Source: Collinsella sp. TM09-10AT
Lineage (GTDB): Bacteria > Actinomycetota > Coriobacteriia > Coriobacteriales > Coriobacteriaceae
NCBI RefSeq assembly: GCF_003436275.1
Contig: NZ_QSOP01000003.1
Span: forward strand, 109,114-173,113
DNA length: 64,000 nucleotides
Direction: 5' to 3'
The position numbers and the translations under genes are program-made. Positions 6,795 to 50,778 of the stretch are shown here, in pieces. A model generated the notes under the pieces. That model searched no databases. It was not told the DNA's origin and saw only the letters and a program-made list of their open reading frames with translations. How positions within the stretch are numbered: the first letter of the stretch is position 1; the number at the start of each line of letters is the position of its first letter.

Positions 6795-6935
6795 CGGATT
6801 CCCGGACCGGGCGGCGCGGGGGTTAAGTTTGCTGCTCTACAGTCCTGGCTCGCACGGAGGCCACATTAAGTGGCCTCCGGCTCGTGCGGAACTCGCGACA
6901 AACTTAACCCCCGCGCCGCCCGGGCCGGGAATCCG
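6795..6935. repeat. Long inverted repeat E1 with conserved central hairpin
   Basis: Outer arms 6795-6831 and 6899-6935 are complementary at 36 of 37 positions. Between them is a second hairpin: CGCACG (6851-6856), a perfect 8-bp stem GAGGCCAC (6857-6864) / GTGGCCTC (6870-6877), loop ATTAA, a five-base bulge CGGCT and CGTGCG (6883-6888). The central part, GTCCTGGCTCGCACG on the left and CGGCTCGTGCGGAA on the right, recurs in E2 at 19.9 kb, whereas the outer arms do not. It lies between the 3' end of the 7.0-kb gene and the rpsL promoter. ORFs crossing it are a by-product of its symmetry. Confidence 0.9.
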
Positions 6936-6957: not shown

Positions 6958-7000
6958 ACCTGCCAAAAAGGGACAGGTTTGTTTTGGCAGGTTTTATCTG
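6958..7000 (+). repeat. GGGACAGG-loop hairpin, copy 1
   Basis: Perfect 11-bp stem ACCTGCCAAAA (6958-6968) / TTTTGGCAGGT (6982-6992) with loop AGGGACAGGTTTG and a T-rich plus-strand tail. Bases 6959-7000 match 35693-35734 at 40 of 42 positions. There is no plus-strand gene upstream for it to terminate, so it looks like a dispersed element as much as a terminator. Confidence 0.8.
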
Positions 7001-7040: not shown

Positions 7041-8117
7041 TTACGAGTAGACGATGGTAAAGGGTTCTTCCGTTTGAGTCTCCCCTGTTGATGTGCACCT
7101 CGTTCCCTCAAGGGTTACCGATACAACCTGATCGACATTGATGAGCCTTGTCGGAACCCAGATGTTCTCTCCGCTATTGCGTCCCATCGAAACATAGAAG
7201 TTGTACGCCCCTGCGTCGTCATCTTCGATAATCTGCTCCGATCCATCCTTGTAGCTGACGGTCAGTTTATGATCAACTGCTTCATAGCCCAGATCATCGA
7301 TGTGCGTCTGGATGGAAAACGGGCTGATCTCGAGAGGCGAGTCGTCGGAGCGGAGCTCCTTTGTATCGACGTGCGCTCCGACGTTAAACTCTGGCGTCGA
7401 TACCTCGATCACCTTCGCATCCTCACCTTTGCCCTCCGTCCAACTGATATTCCAGGTGACCGCATGTCGTAAATCTCGATCGCGATTCCAAGATGCAAAG
7501 TACATCGTGCCGTTAATGACCGTGTCGCTTGATGTGTCTTTATCAATGGTGCAGCGTGTATCAGCCCATTCCTCGCCGAAGTTCATGCTGGGTGTACTGA
7601 CGCCCCCTTCTTCTTCACCATAGAGAACAAGTTCGCCAAGCTCTGCCGCCGGCTTGTAGTAGCTAACGCCATTCGGATTGGACAATGTAAACGTCACAGC
7701 ACCGCAACCGTTCTCGTCGATTGCCATCTCATGAATGTCGAGCGTATAGCCGTTGCCCTCGACGGACAGATTGACCTTCTGGACTGCACCCTCCAGGCTT
7801 TGGGGCGCGATACCATCACCAAACTCTCTGGTGTAGGTATATTTCGTCCCCGACGAGCCGCCATTTGTCCAGGTAACGGACTCTCCGTTGCCATGGTTTC
7901 CCCAGGCAGAGGCAAAATAACTGGAATTGACAACAGCGTAGGCGACCCCTCCGGTCGCCAGCACTCCGGCAAGACATCCGATTACGGCAACATACAGAGG
8001 CTTCGCGTGACCCTTTCGGCGAAGCGGCTCGCCAGCAGCGGCATAAAGAACACGGTCAGCAAGATCGCTATCGGCTTGGACGGACTCGAAGGCCTGCTTG
8101 ATCTGGTTGGATTTCAC
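7041..8117 (-). CDS. Single-pass membrane protein, probable anti-sigma factor or sigma-linked regulator
   Basis: 358 residues. A short N-terminal cytoplasmic part (about 1-38: MKSNQIKQAFESVQADSDLA) is followed by one membrane segment (about 41-62, YVAVIGCLAGVLATGGVAYAV) and a beta-rich extracellular part of nearly 300 residues. This is the architecture of the DUF4179-like anti-sigma proteins encoded next to ECF sigma factors in Firmicutes and Actinobacteria; I recognise the arrangement rather than a catalytic motif. It starts with GTG at 8117, with GGAGGG upstream, inside the last 50 bases of the sigma gene, which points to coupled translation. The signal sensed is unknown. Confidence 0.6.
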   Translation of the reverse strand: MKSNQIKQAFESVQADSDLADRVLYAAAGEPLRRKGHAKPLYVAVIGCLAGVLATGGVAYAVVNSSYFASAWGNHGNGESVTWTNGGSSGTKYTYTREFGDGIAPQSLEGAVQKVNLSVEGNGYTLDIHEMAIDENGCGAVTFTLSNPNGVSYYKPAAELGELVLYGEEEGGVSTPSMNFGEEWADTRCTIDKDTSSDTVINGTMYFASWNRDRDLRHAVTWNISWTEGKGEDAKVIEVSTPEFNVGAHVDTKELRSDDSPLEISPFSIQTHIDDLGYEAVDHKLTVSYKDGSEQIIEDDDAGAYNFYVSMGRNSGENIWVPTRLINVDQVVSVTLEGTRCTSTGETQTEEPFTIVYS

Positions 8118-19079: not shown

Positions 19080-19601
19080 CTAGGCTGCCTTCTGCTCGGA
19101 GACCTGCTGGATCGAACGAGCGAGACCAGAGGAAACGCCGTTGACGCAGACAGCGATGTCGCGAGCGAAACCGGAGATGAGACCGGCGATCTGGCCGAGA
19201 AGCTGATCCTTGGTGGGCAGCTCGGCAATAGCCTTAACATCATCAGCGGAAACGGCCTTGCCGTCGGAGATACCGCCCTTGATCTCAAGGACGCCCTTGG
19301 ACTTAGCAGAGAAGTCCTTGAGGGCCTTAGCGGCCTCGACCGGCTCGGTCTCGTAGAACACATAAGCGACGGGGCCGGCGAGGATCTCGTCGAGCTCGGG
19401 CTGCTCCTGGTTCTTGAGAGCGATCTTGACCAGGTTGTTCTTGTAGACCTTCATCTCGGCGCCGCACTCGCGAAGCTGATGACGCAGCTCCTGAGCCTGC
19501 TTAACCGTCAGACCGTTGTAGTTGACGACGAACAGACCGGCGTTCTCGGCGATACGGGACTCGATCTCTGCAACCTTGTCGATTTTGTACTGCTGGGGCA
19601 T
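19080..19601 (-). CDS. rplJ: 50S ribosomal protein L10
   Basis: 173 residues, normal length: MPQQYKIDKVAEIESRIAEN, then GLFVVNYNGLTVKQAQELRHQLRE and VYKNNLVKIAL. L10 anchors L7/L12 dimers to 23S rRNA and represses its own operon by binding the leader. GAGGAGG precedes ATG 19601. rplK and rplA, usually upstream in the same cluster, are 23 kb away here. Confidence 0.96.
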   Translation of the reverse strand: MPQQYKIDKVAEIESRIAENAGLFVVNYNGLTVKQAQELRHQLRECGAEMKVYKNNLVKIALKNQEQPELDEILAGPVAYVFYETEPVEAAKALKDFSAKSKGVLEIKGGISDGKAVSADDVKAIAELPTKDQLLGQIAGLISGFARDIAVCVNGVSSGLARSIQQVSEQKAA

Positions 19602-19817: not shown

Positions 19818-19846
19818 ATTATGGCGGGGACCCCGGCGTCGGTCAA
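19818..19846 (-). promoter_or_regulatory. Promoter of rplJ-rplL
   Basis: Minus-strand TTGACC (19841-19846), 17-base spacer, CATAAT (19818-19823). The -35 box lies in the outer left arm of inverted repeat E2; the arm's only mismatch with its partner (TTGACC against TTGGCC) falls in this hexamer. Confidence 0.6.
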
Positions 19847-20051
19847 CGGGAAACCGGGCTGCACACAATTCCACCATCCGGCCGCGCCGCCGAAGGCCAG
19901 GCGCAAGGTTTTCGCTCGGTCAGGTCCTGGGCTCGCACGAAGAGCACATTAAGTGCTCTTCGGCTCGTGCGGAATCTACGAAAACCTTGCGCCTGGCCTT
20001 CGGCGGCGCGGCCTGCGGTGACTTTGGGGCAGCCCGGTTTCCCGTTGGCCG
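19840..20051. repeat. Long inverted repeat E2 with conserved central hairpin
   Basis: Inner arms 19880-19914 and 19979-20013 are perfectly complementary over 35 bp. After asymmetric internal loops of 17 and 15 bases, outer arms 19840-19862 and 20029-20051 pair with one mismatch. The central hairpin is CGCACG, AAGAGCAC / GTGCTCTT with loop ATTAA, bulge CGGCT and CGTGCG. It is the same as in E1 except for three base pairs, each changed on both sides. The arms share no long match with E1. Lies between the aminotransferase 3' end and the rplJ promoter, in the same orientation relative to the ribosomal operon as E1. Confidence 0.9.
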
Positions 20052-20106
20052 GCGCCCCCACTCATAAGCCTTAAGTCGGTGGGCTGATATGTTGCGTCCC
20101 TGATGG

Positions 20107-21243
20107 CTACAAGGTTGAAAGGAAGGTGGACAGGCGGCGGAGGCCTTCGTCTAGGTCTTTGTCGGAGACGCAGTAGCTTAGGCGGATATGACCTTCGGTG
20201 CCGAAACAGTCGCCTGGGACTAGGGCTACGTTGGCCTCTTCGATGGCTTTAATGCAGAAGTCTTCGCTGGTTAGGCCGTACTGTTTAATGCTGGGGAAGG
20301 CGTAGAAGGCGCCGGCTGGTTCCACTACGTCGAGATCCATGGCGTCTAAGGCTGCGAGTACGCGTTCGCGGCGGGCTCGGTAGACTTTGAGCATGGGGGT
20401 TGGGTCGACGGTGAGGGCTCGGGCTGCGGCGTCCATTTCGAAGGAGACAGCACTCGATACTAAGTATTGGTGAGCCTTTGCGATCTCGGCGATGACGGGT
20501 GCCGCTGCTGCGAGCCAACCCAGGCGCCAGCCGGTCATAGCCCATGGCTTGGAGAAGCTCTCGATGACTACTGTCTGCTCACGCAGCTCCGGGTGGCGCT
20601 GGGCAAAGCGCTCGTAGCCATCCGCATAGACCAGACGGTTGTACACGTCGTCGCAGATCACGTAGATACCCGCCCGCTCTGCCACGCGCGCCACGGCATC
20701 GAGTGAGGCCGCGTTGAGAATGCAGCCCGTGGGATTGTTGGGCGAGCAGATAACGACGGCCTTGGTCGCCGGGGTCACACAGGCGCGAAGCGCATCCTCG
20801 TCAATCTGGAATTGCGCAGGCTCCGTATCCAAGAAGACCGCCTTGGCGTGGTTGGCCACGACGATGCTCTCGTACAGGCCAAAGGCCGGCGTGGGAATGA
20901 TGACCTCGTCGCCGGGGTTGAGCATAGCCATGAATGTTGCCGACAGGGCCTCGGTCGCGCCGTCGGTCAGGATGACCTCGTCGGCCGAAAACGCAAGGCC
21001 CGCGTCCCCCATGTAGGCAGACAGCGCCTCGCGCAGGGCGGGGCGACCGTTGTTGGGCGGATAATGCGTGTCGCCGCGGCCCAGCGCGGCGGTCACCTCG
21101 GCGCTAATCACATCGGGTGTAGGAAAATCGGGCTCGCCGAGCGCGAGCGCAATGCATCCTGGGTGCTGGGCAGCGAGCGCGTTAATCCGACGGATGCCGG
21201 AGGGCTTGAGCGTGGCAAGCGAGGTATTCATGGGCAGGCGCAT
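20107..21243 (-). CDS. Pyridoxal-phosphate aminotransferase, class I/II (aspartate aminotransferase family)
   Basis: 378 residues. Begins MRLPMNTSLATLKPSGIRRINALA with AAAGGAA upstream; LALGEPDFPTPDVI, YPPNNGRPALREALSAYMG and NNPTG(C) are family markers. The PLP-binding Lys is in SFSKPWAMTGWRLGW and the carboxylate-binding Arg in HIRLSYC near the C-terminus. The exact amino donor cannot be read from sequence. It is monocistronic on the minus strand, and E2 follows its 3' end. Confidence 0.88.
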   Translation of the reverse strand: MRLPMNTSLATLKPSGIRRINALAAQHPGCIALALGEPDFPTPDVISAEVTAALGRGDTHYPPNNGRPALREALSAYMGDAGLAFSADEVILTDGATEALSATFMAMLNPGDEVIIPTPAFGLYESIVVANHAKAVFLDTEPAQFQIDEDALRACVTPATKAVVICSPNNPTGCILNAASLDAVARVAERAGIYVICDDVYNRLVYADGYERFAQRHPELREQTVVIESFSKPWAMTGWRLGWLAAAAPVIAEIAKAHQYLVSSAVSFEMDAAARALTVDPTPMLKVYRARRERVLAALDAMDLDVVEPAGAFYAFPSIKQYGLTSEDFCIKAIEEANVALVPGDCFGTEGHIRLSYCVSDKDLDEGLRRLSTFLSTL

Positions 21244-35691: not shown

Positions 35692-35731
35692 ACCTACCAA
35701 AAAGGGACAGGTTTATTTTGGCAGGTTTTAT
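35691..35731 (+). terminator. GGGACAGG-loop terminator, copy 2
   Basis: AACCTACCAAAA (35691-35702) / TTTTGGCAGGTT (35716-35727), one mismatch, followed by TTA. Nearly identical to the hairpin at 6958-7000, although the surrounding genes are unrelated. Confidence 0.8.
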
Positions 35732-38763: not shown

Positions 38764-38800
38764 ACTACCACAAAGGGGACAGGCACCTTTGTGGTAGTTT
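38762..38800 (+). terminator. GGGGACAG-loop terminator, copy 4
   Basis: Perfect 15-bp stem AAACTACCACAAAGG (38762-38776) / CCTTTGTGGTAGTTT (38786-38800), loop GGACAGGCA. The left arm starts within the mscS stop codon. Confidence 0.85.
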
Positions 38801-40773: not shown

Positions 40774-41480
40774 AAATCCTTGCCATAGCCGATACCGAAG
40801 AACGATGCCTTTGGGAGTGCTTTCGCAAGGAACGCTTTGAGGGTGTCGACCTGATTTTGTCCGCCGGCGATCTGGACCCGGACTATCTTGAGTTTTTGGT
40901 TACGGTCATCAACAAACCGCTCATCTACGTGCGCGGCAATCACGATGACCGCTACGCACGTCATGCACCGGGCGGATGTATCTGCGTGGAAGACAGCGTG
41001 TACACGTACCGAGGGATTCGCATTGCGGGCCTTGGCGGGTCCATGCGTTATCGCGACGGCGCCAACATGTACACCGAACGCGAGATGTCCAAGCGCATGC
41101 GTAAGCTGTCGCGTAAGGTTAGGATGGTCGGCGGGTGCGACATTCTGCTTACCCATGCACCCGCCGCCGGTATGGGTGATCTGGACGATCTGCCGCATCG
41201 AGGGTTTGAGTGCTTTAACACGGCGCTTGAGTCCTGGGGGGCCGACTACATGGTGCATGGGCATGTACACCAAAGCTACGGTTACGATTTTCAGCGCGAG
41301 CGGCAGCATGTGTGTGGAACGACGATCATCAACGCCTGCGGCTATACGCAGTTTGAGCTCGACCAGACGCGCTACCCCATCCGTGGCTGGCAGGCAGCCT
41401 GGCTCAATTCGCAAACCATGCGCCGCGAGCTCAAACGCCACGAGGCCATCGAGTCCTCGACCGCCAGAACCCCCTGGTAA
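40770..41480 (+). CDS. Calcineurin-like metallophosphoesterase
   Basis: 236 residues. Metal-binding motifs: IADTEER (the usual DxH is DTE here), SAGDLD, VRGNHDD, LTHAP and HGHVHQ. Start ATG overlaps the stop of the preceding gene (ATGA), so the two proteins are probably made in a fixed ratio and act together. Substrate is unknown; the partner's ligand-binding fold and ParB-like domain make a nucleotide or nucleic-acid substrate possible. The first motif lacks the His of DxH, but many members vary here. Confidence 0.85.
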   Translation: MKILAIADTEERCLWECFRKERFEGVDLILSAGDLDPDYLEFLVTVINKPLIYVRGNHDDRYARHAPGGCICVEDSVYTYRGIRIAGLGGSMRYRDGANMYTEREMSKRMRKLSRKVRMVGGCDILLTHAPAAGMGDLDDLPHRGFECFNTALESWGADYMVHGHVHQSYGYDFQRERQHVCGTTIINACGYTQFELDQTRYPIRGWQAAWLNSQTMRRELKRHEAIESSTARTPW

Positions 41481-41519
41481 CCGCCACAAAGGGGACACTG
41501 TCCCCTTTGTGGTGGTTTT
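41479..41519 (+). terminator. GGGGACA-loop terminator, copy 5
   Basis: AACCGCCACAAAGGGGAC (41479-41496) / GTCCCCTTTGTGGTGGTT (41500-41517), 18 bp with one G-T pair and a three-base loop, then TT. It starts in the stop codon of the phosphoesterase gene. Confidence 0.85.
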
Positions 41520-50502: not shown

Positions 50503-50537
50503 AGCAGGACATCCAGATCCGCGCCCACCCTTGTCTC

Positions 50538-50664
50538 GATCTGTAACAGCAAGAGGCCTATTCCGCTTCTACATGTTACAGATCAAGATATTCCTAAAAC
50601 ACCCTAAGTTTCATCTCAATCTGTAACAGTTAGATGCCGAATATCGGTCTTGGTGTTACAGATT
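50538..50664. repeat. Two tandem ATCTGTAACA palindromes, 80-bp period
   Basis: GATCTGTAACA (50538-50548) / TGTTACAGATC (50574-50584) and AATCTGTAACA (50618-50628) / TGTTACAGATT (50654-50664). Arms are 11 bp, both loops exactly 25 bases with unrelated sequence, and starts are exactly 80 bp apart. The outer pair is G-C in one and A-T in the other. Pairing resumes as TCT/AGA outside a single mismatch in both. There is no gene between 50232 and 50778. Confidence 0.85.
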
Positions 50665-50778
50665 TAGACAAACTGGAGGACGAGACAAACCAAAAACGGG
50701 ATGGGCGCTAACCCGATGGCGCACCACCTAAATAGAAACGGGCCCTGTCCCTCTTGGAGACAGAGCCCGAAACTCTCA

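Follow-up and report, generated by a model that had tools for sequence, protein, structure and literature searches.

A dispersed intergenic hairpin repeat family in the Coriobacteriales with a conserved core and variable complementary arms

The long inverted repeat E2, found in the 64,000-nucleotide stretch of Collinsella sp. TM09-10AT analysed here (the window), belongs to an old family of hairpin repeats, roughly 130-220 bp long, that are dispersed between genes in the order Coriobacteriales. On balance, and with a little better than even confidence, the family is read as a dispersed REP/ERIC-like repeat, the arms of which are homogenised at the DNA level, the core cassettes of which are exchanged and, with less support, the sense copies of which may serve as 3'-end hairpins.

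Structure and distribution of the hairpin family

E2 (19835..20056, forward strand, as are all its parts) scores 88.4 bits at 19893-20000 with R1, a covariance model built from 27 copies. The element consists of an outer stem (19835..19871 and 20020..20056), a perfect inner stem of 35 bp (19880..19914 and 19979..20013, 100% complementary) and a core of 64 nt with two internal loops (19915..19978), which folds on its own. Within the core, GGTCC (19923-19927) and GTGCGGAA (19967-19974) are the counterparts of the best conserved stretches of the family, and the core stem GAAGAGCAC / GTGCTCTTC (19939..19961) encloses the loop ATTAA (19948-19952). The preliminary description of this DNA had proposed a genuine hairpin with a perfect 35-bp inner stem, and this is borne out by both the complementarity and the fold. 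The outer stem it reported also exists, but the element is slightly longer than described and this stem, 37 nt in each arm, is interrupted and 84% complementary. E1 (6795..6935, forward strand) is a related hairpin with the same plan as E2 and other arms (6795-6831 / 6899-6935, 97% complementary), scoring 115.8 bits with R1. Both fold well beyond chance; the RNA fold of E2 (19826-20066) has an energy of -184.7 kcal/mol, compared with -104.4 (sd 5.0) in 200 dinucleotide shuffles (z -16.0), none of which folds equally well, while z is -12.2 for E1.

With gene names taken from NZ_OY725717.1 (Collinsella aerofaciens TSDC17.2), the neighbours of E2 are rplJ (19080-19601, minus strand) and an aminotransferase gene (20107-21243, minus strand), and those of E1 are rpsL and a DUF4179 gene (7041-8117, minus strand), the product of which shares 96% identity with a protein named for C. 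aerofaciens. Orthologues of both E1 and E2 occur at the corresponding places in C. aerofaciens TSDC17.2. Directly beyond the 3' arm of E1 there is also a REP-like hairpin, CCTGCCAAAA...TTTTGGCAGG (6959-6991), the inner motif of which, GGGACAGGTTT, is found again at position 35704 of the window and in the nearest genome, G001.

Used as a query, E2 gives 33 matches in G001. R1 finds 28 distinct places there, its additional matches being the opposite strand of the same palindromes. R1 matches are present in 40 of the 43 genomes of the genus. A set of 183 copies was analysed, drawn from the window (2), G001 (28), G059 (31), G015 (26), G034 (34), G028 (27), G033 (23), G006 (6) and G025 (6), the last two contributing six copies each from 12 and 8 listed hits. 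A broader model, R2, with 13 candidates scored per genome, yields at least one hit at E<=1e-5 in 143 of 296 genomes of the class; 122 of these belong to the order, and most of the 21 outside it have just one hit (E 1e-6 to 6.5e-14). Three genomes from two other families of the order, G129, G240 and G292, have 25, 27 and 15 R2 hits, respectively. Copies in other families share the core and have different arms, with GCGGAA in 28 and GTCC in 26 of the 29 that were folded (30 fetched, one locus shortened). In a sample of 246 genomes of the phylum, 14 are positive, 13 in the order and one elsewhere in the class, with none outside the class. No match was found in phages, and none of 27 pattern matches in viral contigs fits R2.

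Searched against Rfam at the gathering cut-off, the whole window yields five tRNAs and nothing else, while relaxed searches (E up to 5 or 1) with E2 and the copies in loci L064 and L203 return only microRNA and sRNA models far below the cut-off. The Collinsella-1 RNA (RF01700, Rfam), which is reported from gut Actinobacteria and is named in PMC2864571, is not hit by any of these three. Between two elements in L064 (1646-1695), the Rfam model Ref55 (Enterococcus sRNA 55), the gathering score of which is 43, matches with 46.4 bits in what looks like a terminator hairpin. The retrieved passages of published work on repeats, palindromes, hairpins or structured RNA in Collinsella, Eggerthella and Coriobacteriia contain no description of the element. 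PMC8040213 mentions 20 candidate palindromes that are not predicted terminators, as well as a Collinsella candidate of 51 bp that precedes the L7/L12 gene, and this hairpin family is possibly among its unnamed entries.

Across the 183 copies, GTCC and GCGGAA, on the 5' and 3' sides of the inner hairpin, respectively, are each present in 174, and both in 166. The segments between them fall into a small number of discrete alleles, such as GCTCGCAC.../...GGCTCGTGC, GCGCAAGAC.../...TTTGCGTGC and GCTCACGAC.../...TGTTCGTGC. The arms have a median of 27 and a maximum of 70 paired bases; their columns comprise 5096 Watson-Crick pairs versus 309 mismatches, 72 of the latter G.T, and 60 copies have arms free of mismatch and gap. 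From site to site the arms are for the most part unrelated, with partial similarity in some cases and a few recent copies. Even at one orthologous site they often differ between genomes, yet remain complementary within each copy; at the E2 site in G059, the arms are largely different and the ends of the outer stem are conserved. In L087, L158 and L161 (G001, G059 and G015) the stem seemingly extends into the final codons of the gene upstream (CTGCATCTC ... GAGATGCAG), as though a piece of coding sequence had been copied inversely beyond the element.

Covariation and change between orthologous sites

Covariation within the family is very strong. In alignment A1, a free MAFFT alignment of 27 copies with a structure derived from those copies themselves, paired cells make up 93.2% and the score reaches 0.548, compared with 0.177 after shuffling and at most 0.183 in slid structures. 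Alignment A4 (94 copies) has 95.7% of cells paired and a score of 0.768, which is biased toward the R1 structure to which A4 was fitted, versus 0.193 shuffled and at most 0.154 slid. Both-sided changes occur in 28 of its 34 pairs, and its core stem has 209 cells with such changes versus about 6 G.U cells. Covariation had first been suggested from E1 and E2 alone, and this test over many copies, set beforehand, upholds it. The underlying comparison was likewise accurate: the two core stems have exactly three differences (G to A, G to A, C to G), the partners at all three have changed as well, and neither the loop ATTAA nor the segment CGGCTCGTGCGGAA differs. This covariation is real, but three independent compensations are less likely as its source than a single exchange of a core allele, since the family has a few discrete core alleles and a cassette swap is seen at the E1 site. 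There, the core cassette of C. aerofaciens TSDC17.2 differs as a whole and is flanked by similar arms, a change which, from the sequences, would be best explained by exchange between copies.

Orthologous sites were paired by their flanks, and the comparisons share genomes, so that they are not independent; the close ones were chosen by element identity. Among the 1903 pairs in 33 close comparisons, 62 show a one-sided and 18 a both-sided change; 13 of the 18 became Watson-Crick pairs, and only 1.3 both-sided changes would be expected if the arms changed independently. Transversions make up 25 of the 71 mirrored substitutions in gap-free comparisons. Of 91 pairs compared between E2 and its TSDC17.2 orthologue, 83 are the same, five have changed on both sides to Watson-Crick pairs, four of these by transversion, and three have changed on one side. 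Compared with G001 and G015, E2 differs by an identical one-base indel in both arms, and its one-sided differences (7 and 8, respectively) exceed its both-sided ones. Over 37 close comparisons there are 21 one-arm indels and 9 mirrored ones, the latter including repeats of one event and counted in a strict set, as those between strongly diverged arms are trivial. Homogenisation is therefore not immediate, one-sided changes outnumbering both-sided ones and one-arm indels outnumbering mirrored ones. Between G059_L122 and G001_L080 the core is inverted and the arms are unchanged, the only clear in-place inversion found. Faster mutation of the arms, considered as a further idea, is not borne out by the close comparisons, where median identity is 0.97 in the arms versus 0.88 in the 80 nt past the 3' arm.

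By our reckoning, G.T would make up about one third of broken pairs in the absence of selection, a share that selection for RNA pairing should increase. Among the 54 broken pairs of the close comparisons, 11 are G.T and 43 are other mismatches, and G.U is thus not favoured. This bears on the strongest alternative, in which the element is a selected structured RNA, either a 3'-UTR regulator or a non-coding RNA, with its pairing kept by ordinary compensatory mutation and no special copying. The strength of the covariation and the conserved unpaired stretches are what such an RNA would display, but G.U is not preferred, and the mirrored transversions and mirrored indels have no G.U path.

Under the favoured reading, arm homogenisation with cassette exchange, one arm would be copied from the other, either by conversion or by template switching when the hairpin is replicated, and complementarity would be kept in this way. 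Such copying would also account for the inverted core, while core cassettes would pass between copies by ectopic conversion. Passages of PMC8604942 describe template switching between inverted repeats as leading to arm homogenisation and spacer inversion, and the mirrored arm changes and the core inversion observed here would correspond to these two products; in passages of PMC8794818, template switching is proposed to create and maintain RNA hairpins. The preliminary description had left the choice between a fold that is selected and one copied by a hairpin-preserving mechanism. That pair of options is supported, and copying has the stronger evidence in the mirrored transversions, the mirrored indel, the in-place core inversion and the lack of a G.U preference. 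Selection on the transcript could yield part of the pattern.

Genomic position and turnover

Genes were predicted with a simple custom caller, and some of the long distances are caller errors. None of the 183 cores lies inside a predicted gene, and a few arms overlap a predicted gene end. A gene is found within 0-40 bp on the 5' side of 98 of the 183 copies and on the 3' side of 16 of 181. In 92 of the 183 copies the 5'-side gene reads toward the element in sense, and 70 of these copies are located 0-40 bp past the stop codon (median 15 bp). The 5' side of the other 91, including E1 and E2, faces a gene start, which is within 0-40 bp in 28 cases. Among 29 copies from beyond the genus, a sense gene lies on the 5' side in 23, and 15 of the 29 start 0-40 bp past its stop codon. 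Where neighbouring elements are less than 800 bp apart, 23 of 24 pairs point at each other.

A structured RNA would fit the half of the copies that lie in sense a median of 15 bp past a stop codon, and the 15 of 29 copies from other families that lie 0-40 bp past one, but not the 91 of 183 copies facing the start of an oppositely running gene, and the structured RNA is, taken together with the mutational pattern, considered unlikely. As half of the 183 copies follow a stop codon in sense, a role at mRNA 3' ends is plausible but unproven, being drawn from position only, and E1 and E2 are not among the sense copies. In the less supported parts of the proposed mechanism, sense copies just past a stop codon would act as mRNA 3'-end hairpins, as proposed for REP-type repeats, and a putative factor would bind the conserved internal loops. 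A binder or a structural requirement would be needed to explain these loops, and no factor binding them was found. A broader proposal, put forward tentatively and with more doubt than confidence, is that the family may represent a class of repeats with a factor-recognised constant core and arms fixed only in their complementarity, which would be renewed by template switching rather than by selection on each pair, and which would function as an mRNA 3'-end element throughout the order.

Counted in direct orientation and with both flanks required, 24 of the 28 sites of G001 are shared with G059, 22 with G015 and 1-2 with each more distant genome, and G028 and G034 have 16 sites in common. E1 is present in the window, G015, G059 and TSDC17.2 and absent from G001, where about 33 bp occur in place of about 215; from this distribution, loss in G001 appears likelier than gain elsewhere. 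A subfamily of six copies in G034 has arms and an adjacent REP-like hairpin in common and different flanks. The motifs ATTTAGGGTC/GACCCTAAAT, which flank a Y1 transposase gene in the same genome (L305, 2737-3608), are the motif of that adjacent hairpin. This element may thus have travelled with a REP. In G028, two near-identical stretches in opposite orientation (L176 and L178), each with a convergent element pair beside homologous genes, represent a large duplication that includes the element pair.

The possibility that the family is a mobile element proper, with non-autonomous copies moved by a Y1 transposase (IS200-like or REP-associated) recognising the folded strand, is regarded as improbable. 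The Y1_Tnp domain is found in 14 of 23 genomes, all with elements, and in none of the six element-free ones (Fisher p 0.0008, for 23 hand-chosen genomes that are not phylogenetically independent), and the six-copy subfamily has spread together with the hairpin whose motifs flank the G034 Y1 gene. The association within these 23 genomes is real. However, G033 (23 elements), G006 (at least 6) and G129 (25) have no Y1 match, which argues against a Y1 transposase as a required partner in the upkeep of the family. Furthermore, no R2 match (E<=0.01) occurs in any of 17 stretches, each about 5-7 kb long, that surround REP-type Y1 genes, and a strict search places the REP-like motif near only 4 of the 34 G034 copies. 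A Y1 transposase may bring an element along with a REP, and the family persists without it. The REP-like palindrome itself was discarded as a part of the element; it adjoins E1 and the six-copy subfamily, and the strict motif occurs near those four G034 copies and few others.

Ordinary transcription terminators, the least probable of these explanations, would agree with hairpins soon after stop codons and with the preference for convergent gene gaps (40 copies) over divergent ones (12), these gaps being nearly equally common in the loci (44 and 39). However, of the 79 sense copies with arms of at least 18 bp, only 19 have a T-rich stretch behind the 3' arm, and the conserved core far exceeds a terminator loop in size. 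A terminator of a tail-less kind is conceivable.

Loss of SbcCD as a permissive cause of long palindromes was also rejected. Elements occur in 19 of 54 class genomes with SbcD and in 124 of 242 without it (Fisher p 0.036 over the 296 genomes, with kinship ignored and 13 candidates per genome scored). SbcD (TIGR00619) is below the cut-off in 17 genomes of the genus and present in two element-free relatives. The two are not mutually exclusive, as G165, G219, G239, G254, G261, G273 and G279 have SbcD and 10-13 element hits each.

Relation to known systems and further repeats in the window

The ERIC (IRU) sequences of enterobacteria are imperfect palindromes of slightly more than 100 bp, dispersed between genes and with a conserved centre, and they are conserved over their full length. 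The Collinsella element is likewise a dispersed intergenic imperfect palindrome with many copies per genome (28 in G001), but its arms have no common sequence, whereas ERIC is conserved from end to end. REP/BIME repeats, which are associated with RAYT transposases, are also palindromes behind genes and are thought to serve as hairpins at mRNA 3' ends; by comparison, the Collinsella element is much longer, has a structured core, is kept without Y1 and has no copy near the 17 Y1 stretches. In the attC sites of integrons, structure is conserved over sequence and there are fixed unpaired bases in the folded strand. Structure is kept more than sequence in both systems, but the base of the stem is kept and the tip variable in attC, while here the tip is kept and the base varies. 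Quasipalindrome template switching, as presented in passages of PMC8604942 and PMC8794818, shares with this family the homogenisation of arms, multibase mirrored changes and spacer inversion (one here). Those papers treat it as a mutational process affecting scattered sites, whereas here it apparently acts on a repeat family with a conserved core.

An old question is whether long stems remain perfectly paired through stepwise compensation under selection or through double changes in a single copying event. With some 25-30 copies per genome, many sequenced strains and a constant centre by which orthologues are easily found, the family provides a natural test case, in which the numbers of mirrored transversions, mirrored indels and core inversions can be compared with those of one-sided changes. 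The family is also a warning that covariation, which usually serves as proof of RNA structure, can come from DNA-level processes and from the exchange of whole alleles. A core conserved across families of gut Actinobacteria, with no Rfam match, is of interest at the transcript level.

Several other repeats and mobile sequences were observed. A palindrome around AAAGGGGACA / TGTCCCCTTT at 41479-41517 of the window, which we take to be typical of the REP repeats of Y1 transposases, has its AAAGGGGACA motif also at 38772. In C. aerofaciens TSDC17.2 an IS30-family transposase is annotated at L297 1335-2627 (NZ_OY725717.1), between a uridylyltransferase gene and rplL, and no gene is called in the matching gap of the window. 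Near a tRNA gene, the window contains a further long inverted repeat (50531-50671) with 59-nt arms, 78% complementary and 23 nt apart.
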